From NCBI RefSeq assembly GCF_000203815.1, contig NW_004457734.1, positions 1,365,295 to 1,429,294 on the forward strand: DNA of 64,000 nucleotides. The letters run 5' to 3'. The DNA is from Cavenderia fasciculata (taxonomy: Eukaryota > Evosea > Eumycetozoa > Acytosteliales > Cavenderiaceae). Position 1 is the stretch's first letter; each line of letters opens with the position of its first letter. The notes beneath the pieces are model-generated. The model saw nothing but the letters and a program-made list of their open reading frames with translations, searched no databases and was not told where the DNA came from. This document shows positions 4,959-64,000 of the stretch, piece after piece. The translations under genes and the position numbers were made by a program.

Positions 4959-5431
4959 CTTTATCTGCTTCTATATATCTGTATCTCTCTCTGTTGCAAT
5001 GAATGACAATATTAAATTAGTTAACAAACAAATTTTCAAAATTCCCTCAATTCAAAATTCCCTCCTTTTTTTTTAAATTCTTCACCACCAATATCTCAGC
5101 CCTTTATACATTAGAATATTTATACTCTAGAATCTTTAACAAGTAACAACAACAACAAAAGTACCTGGATTGAAGAATGACGATTGATTCGCCCAATCAA
5201 TACCCCATCATCAAACAAACAAAGACCGCTTGAACCCACAAAGAAATAATCACATGATCATTATAAAAGTAATCAAAGTTCTAGCAAATAAAAATCAAGA
5301 GTAGAGTACAAGATAAAATAACAGACAGTTGCATTTATAAATACACAAATTCTTTTTGTTATTTCTTAATAAACATCTATAACAGAAATAGGCTTACAGT
5401 TTATCAGTTTTGCTAATGGTTGTGACCGCAT

Positions 5432-5532
5432 TCGACTATTTATTATGGAAATGATTAGTATTATGTGAGGGATCAACTTCACCAACCAATATATCTTATC
5501 ATATTAATCATTTCCTTAATAAATAGTCGAAC
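5432..5532. repeat. 31-bp inverted repeat (hairpin) with 39-nt loop
   Basis: The left arm is 5432-5462 and the right arm 5502-5532. The reverse complement of the right arm matches the left arm at 29 of 31 positions. As RNA this would fold into a long stem with a 39-nt loop. It lies between two same-strand genes, and no open frame crosses it. It could be a small-RNA precursor or a miniature transposon remnant. Confidence 0.8.
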
Positions 5533-5695
5533 CGGACGAGCTGTGTGCTCTAGTATCATGTATTAAAAAAATCTATAGAGTTTATAAAGTATAATATAAA
5601 TAAATAATTTTATTTATTTATATCCACAATTGGTATATTACAATTTAATTGGAAAGTATTAAGTTTAATAAATTCCACTAGTCGGTATCTGCTAC

Positions 5696-5768
<73 letters not shown>

Positions 5769-5770
5769 TT
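5696..5770. repeat. TTA trinucleotide microsatellite
   Basis: About 24 uninterrupted TTA units lie downstream of the SH3-kinase gene in non-coding sequence. Tracts like this are common in dictyostelid genomes. Confidence 0.95.
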
Positions 5771-5923
5771 ATGATTTGAGAAATGGTTTGTCGGTCGATT
5801 AATATTATTATTATTTTGTGTATTGTTGGAAAATTAATTTAAGATATAATTCTTAGATTATTATTATTATTATTGTTTCTGGAGGTTAATTCATGATTGG
5901 TTATTATTTCTTTTTTCTTTTAA

Positions 5924-8168
5924 TTAAAAGAAACCAGTATTATTAAGATTTCTTTGTAAGAACATATTATCAAATAATCCCTTCATTCCTTGTTTGGTTT
6001 CAGCTCTTTGGAAGAATGGATGCTAAAATAAAGAAAAAAAAAATTGATTAGTTGACGAGCCCGATCACTTTGTTGTTCCTTCTTTTTTTTAACATACTCT
6101 TAATAACTTATTAGCACTTGATCTTTTTGAAGGATCCATTTCAAAACATTGCCAAAGCATATCTTTGAGATCTAATGAACACTTGAATTTAGTGACATCG
6201 ATACCTTGGGTAGAGTTGTAAAACATGGATTTGAATCGAGATTCACGATGAGGTGGTTTTCTGTACATCATTTCCAACATGCAGATACCAAAACTCCAAA
6301 CGTCGGCGGGGAAGCTGTGTGGCTCACCCTTGATCATCTCGGGTGGCATCCAATAGGGACTGCCGACCATATGGTGACTGGCACCATTTTCGACAGATGC
6401 ACACAACCCAAAATCAACCAACTTGATGTCACCTTCGAGCGAGATCATAATGTTGCCACTCTTTATGTCACGATGCACCAATTTGTTTTCGTGTAGGTAA
6501 GCAATACCCTTGAGGATCTCCTTTCCAATGTAACCAATATGAGTCTCTTTGAAAATATGACTCGACGATACTGCCTGCTCCAACGTACCACCTTGCATAA
6601 ACTCTGTGACAATAAACATTTGACCGTCGTGTACCACGGCACCCTTGAAATCGACAATGTTTGGGTGTCGACATTTGTTTAAAAATCCAATCTCCAAATG
6701 TACATTTAATTGTTCCTTGGCATCTCTATAATGTACTACTTTAATTGCTACCTTTTTCTTTTCCCATTGTGCTTCAAATACTTTACCATATCCACTAAAA
6801 TAGAAAAAGAGAGTAAGTCATTTTGTTACATATGTAATCTTTTTTACTCTCTCTATTTTAATATACATTACCCTTTACCAATTAATTGACCAAATTTCAT
6901 TTTCTTTTTAATGTCTGGAATTGTTTTAACCAAGGTAGATGCCTTTGTAATGAATTCAGGTTTGACACCAGTTAATGTTCTCTTTCTTGACAACTTTAAT
7001 TCTAATTTCTTTGTCTTTCTTTCAGTTTCGTCCTTGATTTGTTCCAATTCCAATTCTTCGTCTAGTGCAGAGGTTTGGATTTCCTTTTTGGCAGTGGCAC
7101 CGTCTTTACTATTCTCTGACTTTTCAGATGGGGGACTAATATAGGTAATCTTTTGACGTGTAAGGAACTTGATGATAGTCAAAAATACTTTGATGTTCTT
7201 TCTGAGTTCGGATACTGGTATCTCTTCATGTTTGAGGTCATTGATAATGTCGTCTGGGAGATCTTCAAATTTACTGATAAAGAGACGTGGACAACGCTTT
7301 CTATTGGCATAACGACGTTTGGCAGTACTACTATTACTCTTTGACTTTCTAAAGAGACCGACATTCGATGTGGACAAATCTTCCTTTTTCTTTTTCTTTT
7401 CCGGTGCACTCTGGAATGGTGAGTCGGTTGGGTTGACAGGTCCAGCACCATCTAATTGCAAAGAGTTCATACTGTTTGATAATTGGTTGGTCGATGTGGT
7501 TGAAGTTGAACCACCGTTTGTGGTTGCTTCATTGCCAGAATCTCCCAATGACGAGGTCGATGATGTTAGTTTTTCGCGATTTGCCAAGTTGGATGCCGAT
7601 GTATTTGGTGTGAATGAATCGGCTGTCGTTGCAGTCGTCGTTGTAGTAGTCGTCGTCGTCGTCGTAGATGTTTTACTATCACTTTCCTGAACCAAGTCAT
7701 TCGATGACGATGAATTTGATGACGATGATTCTTCTAAATCTTGGTTGTTGGATAGTTCTTTTGGAACGGGTGCTGGTGATGAAGGAGATGATGGTGTTGT
7801 TACTGTTGATGATACTGTCGATGTAGATGGTGGTGGTGGTGTTGCTGCTGCTACTGTTGGAGTTGGTTCAGGATTTCTATTTACCAATGGTTGATTGGTT
7901 ATAACCTAGAATTTCATTCGTTCAATCAACAAACAAATGTTAGTTAATCGTCTCTTTAGTACTAACACCTGTGGTTACTTACAGATAATGGTCTAGTATC
8001 AAGAGTGATCAAAGCCGATGGTAAAAGACCGATCTTTCCTTCGAGTCTACCTTTGATCATACCATTCTCGACACGCTCGATAAACTCTATACGTGTACCC
8101 TTTGTAAAGGTAAGGTGTCCGTCGGTTGGACCCGAATAGTCTGATGTCGCTAATAAATAGTATCCCAT
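5924..8168 (-). CDS. SH3-domain STE20/PAK-like serine/threonine kinase
   Basis: Four exons join in phase (8168-7983, 7905-6872, 6794-6098, 6022-5924) to give 671 residues. An SH3 domain occupies residues 3-57 (ATSDYSG, GLLPSALI). A Ser/Thr-rich linker of about 150 residues follows. Next comes FEDLPDDIINDL...NIKVFLTIIKFL, which resembles the C-terminal half of a p21-binding domain, but no canonical CRIB motif is seen. The kinase domain has all key residues: IGKGGYGKVF (P-loop), VAIKV, HRDIKSGN, DFGLC, and GSPYWMPPEMI (STE-type activation segment). The protein ends at NNTGFF. It should be an active cytosolic kinase acting on the cytoskeleton or MAP-kinase signalling, possibly recruited through proline-rich partners. 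The exact orthologue is not identified. Confidence 0.88.
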
Positions 8169-34464: not shown

Positions 34465-36102
34465 ATGGAAAACGTATTATTACATTCTTTTGCAAAAAAA
34501 TTTACATCTAGTTTGAGATTGCAGTTGGCAATTTTCACAGTTGTAGCATGGGCAGTTGCATTAAGTATTGATCGTACCTATGTCGAAAGTTATAGAGTAA
34601 AGGCTGATGATTTCTTTGCCAAGATACCACCAATGGCCGAGGTCATGGTCAGAACATCTGGCCAAAAAGCTGCCATCATTGTACTAGCTATTCTCGAAAC
34701 CTCTATATTTGGATTTGGTGTTGCCTTTCTCATATGTGCCGGCTCTAGAGTATTCAAAATATCAAATGGTCTTTTGCGTAAACGTATGATTGGATCTTGG
34801 ATTGCAATTGGCTTCTTTTGTATTTCATGGTGGCCACATTCGACTGCTCATAGTTTAATTATGACTAGTTCACTTGACCCATATGACAATTATATTATTA
34901 TGGAAGTTTGTTTCCATTGGACTATTATGGTTTGTTCTGTTGTTTTATCTTATTATCAATTTGGTATGAAAAAATAGATACTACACTTTGATAGAATAGA
35001 ATTAGAATATTAATATTATTATTTCTTATTTTCTTTTTTCTTTTTTATTTTTATTTTTTTTTTTTAGTATTTAATTAGATTAATGTATGAAGTAGCAATG
35101 ATGAGACAAAAGATGAATAAAGGTAAAGAGAATGATCCATTAACTGGTCCATGGTATAAAAACTTTATCAATCATTCTTATGTTATCTTTGCACTTGGGT
35201 TTGCCGGTGGTATGGTACTAATGTTTAAATTATCACCAATTCCATATGAAAAGTTGGAAGGTTATCAAGTATTCTTTTATGTTACTTTCAAGGTAAATAA
35301 TTAATAATAATAATAATTAATTGTAATATTAATTTTATTTGTTTTTTTTTCTATTTTAGATTGTTGACAGTCTTTTGTTGGGATTAGGATTTTCATTTGC
35401 CTATGTTATGATTAGAATTATTTATTATTTACCTTCGAATCGTGGTAGAAGGGTTGCCATTATCTCAAGTGTTTGTATCTGGTTCAATTATGCTATTCAA
35501 GTCCCACATCCAATTATTCACGGTAAACTACCAGTTGCAATGATCAATGTTATTGCAGTCGATTATGGTGTACATATTCCAATTATTATTACTACCGGTA
35601 TCTTGGCATTCTATCAATTTAGAATGTTGGAATTGGCTACTGACAAGAATTCTTCCTTGGGTGTATGTATAAAAAAGAAAACAAAAAGAATTAATCTCTT
35701 TTTCTAAATATATTAATATTTAATTTTTTCTTTTTTTAGATTGCAACAAGAATGAGAAAGGGATCAAATAGTTTATCAATGAGAACAATTACTCAAACCA
35801 ATGGATCAGCAATGTCATCAAACAATTCAGCCGATCTTAAAAACTCACAACAATTAAACTCTTCACAACAAGCATTTGCTTCGATTAAAATGGATTCTGC
35901 CATTTCAACAGCTCAGAATGATGATTCAGCCGAGTCTGTCACTATCGAGATTCCAGAACAAGATGAAACAATCTCTGGTAAACCACAGGATGAAGAATCA
36001 TCAGTAACATCTTACAATGTAGCTGCCATTATGATGCCAACCTCTGTTTCCAATCCAGATTTGAAGTCTATAAATACTGAAAAGGAACCAAGAATTAATT
36101 AA
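34465..36102 (+). CDS. Multi-pass membrane protein (exon 1/2 junction unresolved)
   Basis: Exons are 34465-34963, 35068-35292, 35360-35662 and 35740-36102, about 462 residues. At least seven or eight hydrophobic segments are visible. The two halves look related: WWPHSTAHSL...VLSYYQF in the first and NYAIQVPHPIIHG...ILAFYQF in the second, suggesting internal duplication. The C-terminal 120 residues are soluble, Ser/Asn/Glu-rich. The strong T-tract acceptor before 35068 is one base out of phase with the GTATGA donor at 34964. A weaker acceptor at 35092 would be in phase but drops eight residues. An extra T in the run 34960-34962 would also explain it. I do not recognise the family. Confidence 0.7.
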
Positions 36103-36212: not shown

Positions 36213-36556
36213 TTTAGAATATAATATTTTTCAAATATATAAATAATTAGAATATCAAAATGGGATGCAATACCGTGGGTTTGATCATAGTAGGCGAACA
36301 TAATAAACAATATAGAATGATCTATTTGGTTTAAAAAATTATTTCTTTTATTGTTTTTATTAAAGTTGATTAAAGATTAAAATATTGCAAAAAATAATAT
36401 TTTAATATTTAGTTGGCAGTCCTTATTAAAAGAGGATGTGGAGGAGCTTTTTGGTTGAATGTACTTTTAACCATTCTTGGTTGGATTCCAGGTATCATCC
36501 ATGCCTTGTACATTATTTTATCTCATAGACATGACCACGACTAAAATGGAGATCCT
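36213..36556 (+). pseudogene. Rearranged copy of a Pmp3-type membrane protein gene
   Basis: Two blocks match the intact minus-strand gene at 38109-38369 perfectly in inverted orientation. Block 36213-36291 holds the leader and first ten codons (ATG at 36260). Block 36400-36556 holds the complete second exon (36413-36544). Between them the sequence is unrelated, so the LPP-containing end of exon 1 and the donor are lost. A GTAGGC at 36290 could act as donor, in phase with the exon at 36413. That would make a 53-residue protein lacking the end of the first membrane span. It is therefore most likely a pseudogene or a truncated variant. The second exon being unmutated implies a recent event or gene conversion. 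Confidence 0.75.
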
Positions 36557-38253
36557 CAACCAAAATAACTAATAACTATATATTAATTTATATATTAATT
36601 AATTAAATTAAAAAAACAAGGCCTATCAAATTAGTGAAAGTTGAAAAAAACCTTATACCATTTTTATTATACACAGATCTTCGAAGAGAGATAAGACTTT
36701 TATATAATATGTATACATACAAATTTTGAATTATAGTTCACAGAGATTGCTTCGTCTTGTTCTGGAATCCTTAGAGTGTAATTAATACAGCGGGTATTAT
36801 TATTGTTGTATGTTTTCTCTCATTAATCATACTATCGTCATCATTATAAACATCATTCGCATTTCACTATCATAGAATATCAGTTAATACAATCATCGCA
36901 AACAACAATTTATCTTCCTCCTTGTACACTTTATATCTTTATCATTCAACATACGTTCAATTACAACATACAGTATTCTATATGAACAATGTACTGGGCA
37001 ACAATGATGTTATTTAGTTATTCTATTTTTTTTCTTTAAAATTCCAATACCAAAGAAGACTGCAGCTAGACAAAGGATTTAATAGATTTGGAAATGAAGT
37101 TGTTTACAAATATACTACTATCAAACAACATCTCGTATGAAAGCTCCCTCAAGACTTTTATGAATGTAGACAACAAAAACAATTATTTGTTAATGGACAA
37201 CTCAACCTGTCAAAAGTCCATCAACGATTTCAACTATCTCTTGCAAATAGTGTATAGCGTACTGGCAGATAACCTAAATCTCTACCACCACGGCGACACA
37301 ACAGGTGTTCTTCTTTGAAATTGACGGCATGATCACCTTGGTTGGCGCTACACCTCTTCTCATCAAATACAGTCGAGTAATCCTAACCATCCTCTTTAAT
37401 AAAGAAATCGGGTTTGGATTAACAAATTTGGTCAATGAAAGAACTTGCATTTGCCAGATTTGGAACCAGATACAGACTATCGTGCAAGATTTCATGGTAT
37501 TACCTCTGCGAGACCACTTGGACGTGTCGTGAAAATGGTAACTCTACAAAGTTGGAACTTTTACCAAATATTCACCAGACAAGCCAAGTTGTACAACTTA
37601 ACATCATCAACTCTAATATCACCAACTGTCATCAATAATTTAAGCAAAGCTTGCTTCTATCGACAATCACATAGCATCCCTCGCATACCCAAAAAAAATA
37701 TATGCCAAATGCTAAAGACAGAGGCATCAGACTGTTGAACACTCCATGGGGAGGATACAATTCAATTGGATCATATTTGGTTGCAAATTTTTTGGTAACC
37801 CACCACCAACAGCCCAACATCCAACTACCGAGTGTTTGGAATAGTTGAAAGTTGAGTTGTTGGTCGTGGGTCACAGGATCATCTCAGTAGTTGGATGTGT
37901 GATATACAAAAAAGTCACCAAACTCTTCCTGAAGAAAACTACCAACACAACAATTATAAATAATTATCAAATAAAAGTTTATATATACCATACAATATGA
38001 TTGTTTAAAAAATATTTTCTTTATTGTTATTAAAGTTGATAAAAGTTTAATAACAGGGTCTGTGTTTTATTTTATCGCGGACTGACTGGTGATGAAAGGA
38101 TCTCCATTTTAGTCGTGGTCATGTCTATGAGATAAAATAATGTACAAGGCATGGATGATACCTGGAATCCAACCAAGAATGGTTAAAAGTACATTCAACC
38201 AAAAAGCTCCTCCACATCCTCTTTTAATAAGGACTGCCAACTAAATATTAAAA
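36400..38253. repeat. Inverted duplication, block B arms (157 bp each)
   Basis: The arms are 36400-36556 and 38097-38253, identical when one is reverse-complemented. They cover the second exon of the Pmp3-type gene plus 12 bp after the stop. The 1.5 kb between the arms holds the decayed coding sequence. Confidence 0.85.
37088..37740 (+). pseudogene. Decayed coding sequence with fibronectin-III-like segment
   Basis: Three consecutive pieces of plausible protein lie in different frames: 37088-37318 (NYLLMDNSTCQKSINDFNYL), about 37300-37450 (VFFFEIDGMITLVGATPLLI) and 37435-37600 (LPDLEPDTDYRARFHGIT). The last resembles the L-x-L-x-P-x-T-x-Y region of a fibronectin type III domain. Base composition is coding-like compared with the flanks. 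No splice sites join the pieces. I read this as a gene remnant with at least two frame breaks, enclosed between the inverted Pmp3 copies. The original function is unknown. Confidence 0.5.
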
Positions 38254-38369
38254 AAAAAAAATTTTAATTAGTATTTATTATACTCTATAGTTTCCTATTT
38301 TTTCTATAAAATACATGCTGGCGGGAGAATTATAGCCACTATGATCAAACCCACGGTATTGCATCCCAT
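38109..38369 (-). CDS. Pmp3/UPF0057-family small membrane protein, intact copy
   Basis: Exon 1 (38369-38319) encodes MGCNTVGLIIVAIILPP. Exon 2 (38240-38109) encodes LAVLIKRGCGGAFWLN, then LLTILGWIPGIIHALYII, and ends SHRHDHD. Together they give 60 residues, the normal length for this two-span family. The spliced LPPLAVLIKRG matches the family's LPPVAVFLxRG signature exactly, which fixes the junction. The donor is then GCATGT, so the 78-nt intron is of the GC-AG type; the neighbouring GT at 38314 would give a frameshift. Pmp3 proteins sit in the plasma membrane, influence membrane potential and ion sensitivity, and are often stress-induced. Exon 2 is identical to the copy at 36413-36544. Confidence 0.9.
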
Positions 38370-40041
38370 TTTGATATTCTAATTATTTATATATTTGAAA
38401 AATATTATATTCTAAAAAATATTATGTAATAAACTAGTTTGAAAAGAAAATGAAAACTCACATCCACTCCATTTATAAATAGTCAATGACTTTACAAAAA
38501 AAACATGGTATAATTGTAAATGTAAATCTTGTTCCATATGAGGATTTTCCATTAATGGAAACGTAATTAAATATTTATTAAAATTTCAATTTTCTATTAG
38601 ATTCCAATAACAATTACTTTTTTTCTTTTACAATGAGTAATACCCACACACACTCCCACTATCTACCCTCATACCTTGTAATTGTACCATTAACATCATG
38701 GAAAGGAAAATAAACAATTCAAAATATTTCTTGGTTTGTTGGAATCTATTATCCATTTTCTTTTATTCTTTTTTTATTAATTATTGTTTTTAAAAGAACA
38801 AACAATGAATTGGTTGTTGATCTATTCAACCAATGTAAAGAAGAATAGAATATTTTACTCTTTCAAGTTGAAATTCAAGATATCTTCTTCTTCTTTTTGA
38901 ACTACGGAAAGTCATCATAGTTTAGTTTCAGTATGAATTTAAGAAGACATCCGAAAGAGAAAAGAAATCTTTTAATTTGTCGGAAACATGTGTTCGGAAC
39001 CCCCCAATGTCCACCATGATATCATCTTGATTTTGAGTGCCCCATAAACAAAAGTGATCCGTTCCGCTGTGAGAGGTGCCCCCACTACTTATTGATATCC
39101 TCCCGACCAGATATCAGTTTCGAAAACCCTTGTTTTTTTCTACTCTTGAAATTGAACAATGGGAAATCAAAGCCAAGCATCACCATCAACCCCCCCCCCC
39201 ACTTTTTCTTTTTTACTCTTCTCTACTCACTTTCTAAATTTGGTGTAACATTACATGACTAAACAACAACAAACATCAAACCCTCTCTACGGGATTACCG
39301 GGATGTGATGAAGCAAGAATCGTATTACTACAAGTAATCTTCGTTACTTTGCTTGCAAGTAGTATAATAATGCTGTTCCCGTGTACAACACACAAAACAT
39401 AAACATTTTTAATGTGTGTTTGTATTTAGTTAGTGCGTGTGTGTGTGTAAATAAACAAGGAGTGTTCTGGTTATTGTATCCAAACAAACAAACACAGGCA
39501 TCACATCAACAACAACAACAACAACAACAAACACATATACAATAGTACGACGTAATTGGAAAAACAACCAACATACATTGCAACAAATAATCAAATCAAA
39601 TTACAAAGAGAGATTAGAGGAGGAGCAAAGAAGAAGCAGCAGCAGTAGCAACAGACTTGAACAAGAGATAGAAAAATTAACATAATAGTTATCTTATCTC
39701 TGGTCATGAATTAGAAAAAAAAGAAAGAGGAGAGGAGTAAATTAAACAAACAAAGAAAAAAAGAGAGAAAGAAATTATTATTACCTCCATCGCACCACCA
39801 TACATACAATTACATATATATACCTTCCTCCCCATTTTTTATTTTACCATCATCAACAACAATAATAATAATAATAATAGTCCGATTCGATATACACTGT
39901 AAATCTATTTTTTAAATATATCCCATTCTTGGTTTATCTGTACATTATTCTTTTTTCCACCAATCTTTATCTATCTATCTATTCTATCTATTCTATCAAT
40001 CTATTATTTATCGACTAAATAACGTAACGTTATATATATAA
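38370..40041. other. Intergenic, probable promoter of GPI-PLD gene
   Basis: The region beyond the Pmp3 leader contains a C-run (39190-39200), a GT tract (39438-39447), CAA repeats (39508-39531) and AAT repeats near 39860-39878. No gene is supported. Confidence 0.6.
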
Positions 40042-46998: not shown

Positions 46999-47282
46999 AT
47001 ATATATTTATTGATAAAAAGGAATTCTTGACCCACCTACTGACACCCACCCGTTGGAAAGGCCTGATCATAATTAATATGATCTCTTTTCGCGATCTGAA
47101 CAAAACTAAAAACAATACAATAAACATTGATCCAAATCATTAATATGAACTTGATCTTCGTAAAAATATATTATACAACAAAAAAGGTCACATCCAACAC
47201 TTGTTTGTAAAGTAATTCTTTTCCAATTTGCCCCCATCGAGATTCGAGACTACAACCCAAAATTGAGAAAAAAAGGCACAAT

Positions 47283-47354
47283 TGCTCTATCATATAAGGG
47301 TTAGTATCCTGGACTTTGAATCCAGTCATCTGAGTTCGAATCTCAGTAGAGCAA
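47283..47354 (+). tRNA. tRNA-Gln (anticodon TTG)
   Basis: A full cloverleaf can be drawn. The acceptor stem is TGCTCTA paired with TAGAGCA. The anticodon stem is CTGGA/TCCAG around the loop CTTTGAA, so the anticodon is TTG, reading CAA. The T stem is CTGAG/CTCAG around TTCGAAT. The D arm contains the conserved GGTTAG. The body is like other eukaryotic tRNA-Gln genes. No intron is present. A TTTTT tract starting 8 nt downstream is the likely Pol III terminator. CAA is the dominant Gln codon in the poly-Gln genes nearby. Confidence 0.93.
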
Positions 47355-47361
47355 ATATCTT

Positions 47362-61875: not shown

Positions 61876-63894
61876 ATGTATAAACCAACACATCATCATC
61901 ATCACAACAATGACACATCATACAACAACAACAATGCATCTGCAGATGCATCAACTTGGGAAGAAGCAGGAAACTATGGATCCACCAACAACAATAATAA
62001 TAACAACAACAATCAACAACAACAACAACAACATCAACACCAACAACAATCATTTGTACAAATGCCTCCAGAGTATGTATCCTCATAATTGTTGTGATTG
62101 CAAATGAGATGAGACAGCACTACACTACTCGACATTTAGATTTACTAAATCTATTTACACTTGCTTGCTTGCAGATTATACTATGGCAATAAATATGGTA
62201 AATTCCCTCCATCAGGAGCTTATCAACCCATAGGATTAGTATCGCCACCCCCTATTCCATACGGGGCAATTCCCTATTCGATGCCACCTGTGCCCATCCA
62301 GGCCTCACCAATGCATCCATCCAACAGAAAACTTTGCAGATTTGCAGAGAGATGCAGAAATGGCGATGATTGTCCTTATTACCATCCCCCAAAACAACAA
62401 CAACAGGGTGGTAATGCATCGGCAATGAATCCACAGAATCTATATATATCCAATGCCCCAGGGGGAGGACCCACCGGCGGCGGCGGCGCTGATATGTACA
62501 GACCACCCATTTTACAACCAGCAGCAGGATTTCAACAAGGTTATTATCCTACCACAACACCAGTCGCATCGGGCGGAGCAATCCCACCCTATGCAGTTGG
62601 TGGCCCTCAACCTCCATCCCCACAATCGGCTGGAGGCTATTATGTATATCCTACTTCAACTCAACCACCCCCACCAAGAGGTGTCTACCCACCACCACCA
62701 CAGGATGCAATGCATCCATTCCATCCAAACCAAACCGTAAATATCCCACCACCACAACACCACCAACCACACCATGGTCCTCATCAACCACCACCACACT
62801 ACGCACCAAACAATCATCATCATCATCATCATCATCAACAACATCAACAACACAACAATAACAATAATGACCAACAACAACAACAACCATTATCTCCACA
62901 TCAAACAACTACTGTCGCCACCGTTGTTGTTGCTCCACCACCACCACAACCACAAGCAACCTTTATTTCAATGACTGCTGAACAATTGATCCATCAAGCA
63001 GCATCATCATCCAATGTACCTTTAAATGCAATCCCAACAACTTCAAACAACGCTGTAAAACATCAACAACAACAAGAAAATCAAGTTGAAAAGGAAAAGG
63101 AAAAAGAAAAAGAAAAGGAAAAGGAAAAGCCAAAGGAAGTGGTCAAGGAAGTTACACCAAAAAAGCAACCACAAAATGAAGCAACAGCTGCTCTTGTCAA
63201 GACTCCAAACACAACTCCACAATCAAAACAATCAAAAAATAATCAACAACCACAATCATCACCAGTTACACCACAATCAACTCAACCACAATCATCATCG
63301 TCATCATCACCTGCAACACCACAAGATCCATCATCGATTGCATCAATGTCGTCAATGATAAAACAGTTTTCGTTAAAGGACAACATCAACAACAACCCAA
63401 CCTCTCCAACCAGTGCAGAGTTTATCGCTTCGACTACTACCACCACCACCAACACCTTGACCACCACAACCACCACAACCACCACTACAACCACCTCGTC
63501 ACCAAAGCATCCAGATCAACAACCATCATCCTTTATTACAACCACCACTACACTCTCACCAACATCACCACACCAACACGGTCAATATCATAGAAAGAAC
63601 AGCGGTTCTGGAAATCCATCGTCATCATCGGGAGGATCTCCATACAATGGAAACAAAACATCTGGAGGAGGAGGAGGTTTCAACAAAACAAATAGTCCAA
63701 AAGGAACTCATAAAGGAGGTTTTGAAGATCGAACCAAATCACCAAGCGACAAACCAAAAAGAGATCATCATAATTCTTCCCCATCAAGTTTTTCAAAGAG
63801 AAATAATAATAATAATAATATTTCCAATCCTTCAGTTGTATCATCTGTTCCACCAGCATCACCCACCACTGCTAATACTAGTTCAAAACAATAA
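61876..63894 (+). CDS. CCCH zinc-finger, low-complexity RNA-binding-type protein
   Basis: Exons 61876-62072 and 62175-63894 join in phase (GTATGT donor, CTTGCAG acceptor) to give 638 residues. The first 65 residues are His/Asn/Gln-rich. A single CCCH finger sits at about residue 120, CRFAERCRNGDDCPYYH (C-x5-C-x5-C-x3-H), the spacing seen in Nab2/ZC3H14-type fingers that bind polyadenosine RNA. The remainder is disordered: Pro/Gly/Gln tracts, a Lys/Glu run (63090-63135), a Thr tract (63435-63500) and a Ser/Asn-rich end. One finger alone is unlikely to bind RNA tightly, so it may act as part of a complex. The function is inferred from the finger only. Confidence 0.85.
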
Positions 63895-64000
63895 AAATAA
63901 ATCATTCGTTTTAGAATTAAATAAATTAAAAGATTCCAGGATAATTTGATGAGTGTCGACGAAAAAAAAAAAAAAAAAAAACAAAAAAATACATAGTAAG

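Follow-up and report, generated by a model that had tools for sequence, protein, structure and literature searches.

How can two copies of one gene be identical in two blocks and unrelated between them? The locus that raises this question lies in a 64,000-nucleotide stretch of Cavenderia fasciculata DNA (the window), which represents the last 64 kb of contig C4. The GC content of the window is 0.34, and that of a 200-kb sample is 0.35. Positions 63600-64000 reach the end of the contig, and by eye these final 400 bases resemble an ordinary gene end and not a telomere repeat. An earlier interpretation made from the letters of the DNA (the sequence-only reading) had described an inverted, rearranged duplication of a Pmp3-type gene and had named three possible causes, namely recent inverted duplication with replacement, gene conversion, or an assembly join. 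Among titles and the first parts of abstracts, we found no published report of this locus.

Results

Identical inverted blocks with unrelated interiors

The two blocks of the sequence-only reading, one of 79 bp and one of 157 bp on opposite strands, were confirmed with 100% identity (Table 1). In both blocks together, 0 of 236 bases differ between the copies. The arms of the shorter block are 2046 nt apart, those of the longer block 1540 nt. The blocks have different axes (centres at 37314.5 and 37326.5), and the interiors between them are of unequal length (108 nt on the left, 84 nt on the right). A MAFFT alignment indicated that identity ends abruptly at the block edges, on the outer side too. 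The claim that the sequence between the blocks differs completely also held. When the interiors were compared together with a few adjoining bases, the best local score was 20, which was matched by 368 of 500 shuffles, indicating no detectable homology. The outer flanks of the two copies did not match convincingly either: 47 of 500 shuffles were as good for the 5' flanks, and 6 of 500 for the 3' flanks, which is suggestive, but only one among six tests. Coincidence was rejected as the source of the identity, because, when the alignment columns of the pair were permuted, no run exceeded 57, compared with the observed 157 (0 of 2000).

The shorter block consists of 47 nt of leader and the 32 nt counted from the ATG, and the longer block of 13 nt of intron end, the whole of exon 2 and 12 nt past the stop. 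Exon borders and edges of identity do not coincide, and identity ends 19 nt short of the inferred end of exon 1 in the right copy. This refines the earlier statement that identity includes leader and exon 2 but not the intron: the 13-nt intron end and the acceptor site lie inside the 157-bp block.

Table 1. Features of the inverted Pmp3 locus, in positions of the window
Feature	Positions	Strand	Evidence or remark
Left block 1: 47-nt leader and first 32 nt from ATG (36260)	36213..36291	+	identity to the reverse complement of 38338-38416
Left interior, 108 nt	36292..36399	+	unrelated to right interior; no VAIILPP in the readings tried
F', in left interior, diverged same-strand copy of F	36329..36380	+	44 of 52 columns identical
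Left block 2: 13 nt intron end, exon 2 (36413-36544 with stop), 12 nt 3' UTR	36400..36556	+	
Spacer between exon-2 arms	36557..38096	.	unmatched elsewhere in the genome at the DNA level; no Pfam family for three open stretches
Diverged inverted copy (27/29) of upstream gene at 35949-35977	36749..36777	-	score 48; 0 of 300 shuffles
Imperfect palindrome in spacer	37795..37874	.	73% over 82 columns; 0 of 1000 shuffles, with pieces picked after the palindrome had been seen
F, in 3' flank of right copy	38003..38050	+	local match to F'
Right block 2: exon 2 38240-38109 with stop	38097..38253	-	
Inferred GC-AG intron of right copy, 78 nt, donor GCATGT	38241..38318	-	reading that gives a canonical Pmp3
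Right interior, 84 nt: last 19 nt of inferred exon 1 and most of intron	38254..38337	-	
Right block 1: leader, ATG 38369	38338..38416	-	identity to left block 1

The other 23 of the 25 longest inverted pairs in the window (the best 25 of 106) were all located in simple repeats. As a control, 20 stretches of 10 kb from contig C1 and the window in overlapping 10-kb pieces were analyzed with simple sequence excluded. Besides the two blocks, they contained only one exact inverted repeat of at least 40 nt, which was 46 nt long; in one stretch, four direct repeats were exact over 49-65 nt. The Pmp3 pair is not alone in its patchy identity, because three neighbouring paralog pairs (the three largest of nine control rows) had exact runs beyond those of permutations (0, 0 and 5 of 2000). 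Long exact runs in other paralog pairs may partly reflect conserved protein stretches.

Two of the control stretches can be described further. Stretch L019 (3044-4295 / 5195-6453) holds two inverted genes of about 70% identity that share an exact run of 46 bp; the translation resembles a cytochrome P450. In stretch L013 (2196-9993), direct paralogs are about 73% identical, with exact runs of up to 65 nt that exceed permutations.

An apparently intact right copy and a probable left pseudogene

The right copy, on the minus strand, has its ATG at 38369, and its stop ends at 38109. Read with a 78-nt GC-AG intron, it encodes a complete 60-aa Pmp3 protein that matches positions 4-49 of the PF01679 (Pmp3 / UPF0057) profile with 80.2 bits, above the cut-off of 22.9 bits. 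With a GT-AG intron instead, the protein is one residue shorter and scores 65.8 bits, compared with 80.2 for the GC-AG reading. The right copy thus seems to be an intact gene with a putative GC-AG intron. This apparent GC donor goes beyond the sequence-only reading, as does the involvement of the spacer in older local inverted copies (see below). The assignment to the Pmp3 family was borne out for both copies by matches to the PF01679 profile.

A PF01679 search of the whole genome (30,995,898 bases in 21 contigs, with match counts as lower bounds) gave at least three matches, namely both copies at this locus and a gene on C1. The C1 gene scores 77.6 bits, has the same LPPLAV as the right copy, and contains two introns at other places, with the donors GTAAAT and GTATGT. 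The LPP core belongs to the first helix of Pmp3 proteins, and it is present in the right copy and in the C1 gene. Of the 21 nt that encode VAIILPP in the right copy, 19 lie in the right interior and the first two in block 1. Prokaryote relatives showed PP in 10 of 11 cases and a single P in the eleventh; none lacked the segment, and no gap was visible there by eye. As far as the search reaches, the genome has two complete Pmp3 genes, the right copy and the C1 gene.

The left copy, on the plus strand, has its ATG at 36260, and its stop ends at 36544. From 32 nt past the ATG its sequence is unrelated to the right copy, in agreement with the earlier claim that the end of exon 1 has been lost. Six in-frame readings, with GT or GC donors near the ATG and two acceptors, were tried, and none encodes VAIILPP or LPP. 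Because no reading has VAIILPP while the relatives keep the segment, the left copy is probably a pseudogene; we infer its dead state, as we do the GC-AG splice of the right copy, from the predicted proteins. The open frame of exon 2 in the left copy says nothing either way if this exon was merely copied.

Two of the left readings were scored, one of 53 aa (60.6 bits) and one of 66 aa (61.0 bits). Both are in frame and pass the Pfam cut-off, which would be in line with a working variant; yet they match the profile only from position 14 (14-49) and lack the core of the first helix. Among possible donors of such a variant, GTTTAA occurs in 2 of 88 rough candidates, and GTTTGT seems by eye to be present in a gene at 40.2 kb, but GTAGGC is found in 0 of 88 of the same noisy set. 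The left copy might instead be the source of a hairpin RNA that silences the right copy, as the geometry predicts a 157-bp perfect stem upon read-through. We regard a function of either kind as very doubtful. The donor statistics from open frames proved unreliable, since 66 and 70 candidates came from the false donors GA and CT, compared with 88 from GT, and in a second count AT-AG exceeded GT-AG in 4 of 4 settings. GTATGT was the sole donor that stood out among the rough candidates (11 of 88).

A diverged element in the left interior

The left interior contains an element, F', that has a diverged counterpart, F, in the 3' flank of the right copy. The alignment of F and F' has 4 mismatches and 4 gap columns and scores 62, whereas the maximum among shuffles was 39 (0 of 1000 reach 62). 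The next best place for F in the window scores only 31; the left interior also has a weaker second match at 19.2 kb (score 48). Pattern searches of the genome with F and F', ungapped and tolerant of up to 3 mismatches, recovered only the two elements themselves; the genome searches were insensitive, since gaps were disallowed in the patterns and one search missed F itself. F' may therefore descend from a sequence that the searches missed.

Between F and F', 4 of 48 compared bases are mismatched, compared with none of 236 in the blocks (Fisher p 0.0007, mismatches alone), and the divergence of the blocks is at most about 1.3% (95% bound). This difference makes the left interior look older than the block identity. 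This bears on the possibility that about 320 bp of the right gene were recently duplicated in inverted orientation and that one event then replaced the interior of the new copy. Two events would be enough for this, and the abrupt outer edges of the blocks as well as the lack of convincing homology between the outer flanks are in its favor. However, the replacement should then carry a near-perfect copy of its template, yet F' agrees with F in 44 of 52 columns only, and no closer copy of F' was found in the genome by searches of limited sensitivity. We consider recent duplication with replacement less probable than gene conversion.

The spacer

Compared as DNA with the whole genome, the spacer matched nothing besides itself. 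Three of its open stretches belong to no Pfam family, and one of them matches only itself in the genome. Because two more diverged inverted copies involve the spacer, the site appears to have a history of local inverted copying. One is derived from the coding end of the upstream membrane-protein gene, and the other is the palindrome (Table 1). With soft scoring, the inverted comparison of the end of the upstream gene with the spacer was not convincing (34, 153 and 20 of 500 shuffles); its 29-nt core stands out once scoring is stricter (0 of 300). Three further wide comparisons, in which 2, 10 and 60 of 300 shuffles were as good, had AT-rich best matches, and nothing was concluded from them. 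A third, decayed plus-strand copy at 37900-38002 found no support, as 248 of 500 shuffles were as good.

A mobile element with terminal inverted repeats was also rejected, because the spacer is unmatched in the genome, three of its open stretches are without Pfam family, and no target-site duplication was seen by eye. The same applies to a non-coding RNA gene, since Rfam at gathering scores yields only a tRNA in the window. A tRNA-Gln (ttg) gene is located at 47282-47355.

Reliability of the assembly

Inverted repeats are hard to assemble, which counts for an artefact, whether through an incorrect inverted join or through misplaced reads that homogenised the consensus. On the other hand, the usual dideoxy and 454 reads are longer than 79 and 157 bp. 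A false join is disfavoured because the blocks are shorter than the usual read, each is flanked by different sequence, the two axes differ, the interiors are unequal (108 and 84 nt), and the window contains no N. According to the available excerpt of the genome report, the draft assembly of the species was built from dideoxy and 454 reads, which leaves room for such an error, but was backed by a fosmid map and primer walking, which argue against it (PMC5282741). An artefact is thus unlikely judging from the assembled letters, and the locus is probably real.

Discussion

The explanation that we prefer, and to which we give about as much credence as doubt, is that of an inverted paralog pair that was scrambled by events of the template-switch type and in which gene conversion homogenised the shared blocks. 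According to this proposal, the locus would consist of two convergent Pmp3 paralogs, an intact one on the right (minus strand) and a pseudogene on the left (plus strand). The end of the first exon of the left copy, together with its donor, would have been swapped some time ago for unrelated local sequence, and the first membrane helix would thereby have lost its LPP core. The arms may still pair and exchange sequence, by gene conversion or by template switching between inverted-repeat arms, and such exchange would have kept or made the blocks of 79 and 157 bp identical. The heterologous interiors and flanks would be unable to join the exchange.

We infer conversion as the cause, and also the order of events, from the age difference described above: if the replacement is older than the identity, as it seems to be, the identity must have been renewed, by conversion or template switching. 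In favor of conversion, the identical stretches also take in leader (47 nt), intron end (13 nt) and 3' UTR (12 nt). One sign of conversion would be an identity above the age of the copies; in this one genome, no base differs in the blocks, and 8 of 52 columns, including 4 gaps, differ between F and F'. Against conversion, F/F' comprises only 52 AT-rich columns, with gaps making up half of the differences, and exons may evolve more slowly than introns. Among the three causes that the sequence-only reading had offered, gene conversion fits best, with recent inverted duplication plus replacement as a serious competitor.

Homogenisation limited to exons, via a cDNA intermediate, would also be expected to skip most of the intron and to leave identity mostly over transcribed parts, as is the case here. 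Moreover, if the right mRNA used GTGGCT (38339) as its donor, the junction would be in frame and lie 2 nt ahead of the break in the left copy. However, GTGGCT is absent from the 88 rough donor candidates (a noisy set), and the 157-bp block contains 13 nt of intron end that a spliced cDNA would lack, even if this stretch is partly T-rich and might match by chance. Taken together, we find a cDNA intermediate highly improbable. A processed retrocopy, for which the criteria in the consulted part of the literature are absence of introns, a poly(A) tail and flanking direct repeats (PMC3449122), was rejected, because interiors of 108 and 84 nt are kept and neither a poly(A) tail nor a flanking repeat was seen by eye at the block ends.

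It is likewise highly improbable that the locus is an invertible expression-site switch, in which only one of two promoters would drive a working Pmp3 gene at any given time. In such a switch, a crossover between the 79-bp arms would invert 36292-38337, so that the left leader and promoter precede the intact core and the right ones the broken interior; a crossover between the 157-bp arms would flip the spacer only. That such an exchange between the 79-bp arms would swap the intact core between two promoters is an oddity of the locus in its own right, and if orientation varies among strains, the locus would represent a small eukaryotic flip switch.

Under the preferred explanation, conversion between convergent paralogs, the locus would be a compact case of inverted copies that stay identical where pairing is possible and drift where it is not, with one copy already broken. 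It is also a warning that the left copy should not be counted as a second working Pmp3 gene here.

Parallels for such an arrangement are found in several systems, as far as the available excerpts of the reports describe them. In template switching at short inverted repeats of yeast genes, arms are homogenised and spacers inverted, and the likeness lies in the homogenised arms; the arms studied there, however, have at least 7 bp and the spacers at most 70 bp, whereas 1540 and 2046 nt lie between the arms here (PMC8604942). In the GSTT2 duplication of apes, which is inverted, the duplicate likewise carries silencing mutations and the copies undergo conversion, but conversion spread the silencing mutations in that case, while the break is confined to one copy here (PMC3375281). 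In the flip/flop repeats of Saccharomyces, inverted gene copies are likewise homogenised by conversion, at times with crossover and inversion; those arms are 4.2 kb long and 24 kb apart, and strains show the inversion, in contrast to arms of 79 and 157 bp here (PMC9731477). Inverted paralogous pairs of Caenorhabditis, convergent or divergent, have arms that are up to 100% identical, as well as diverged spacers and some diverged coding ends, much like the Pmp3 pair, and gene conversion has been proposed for them; three species were compared there and both members are described as genes, whereas the present case is one sequence with one coreless copy (PMC1803023). With inverted gene pairs as known parallels, the locus is explained in kind and is not new in kind.
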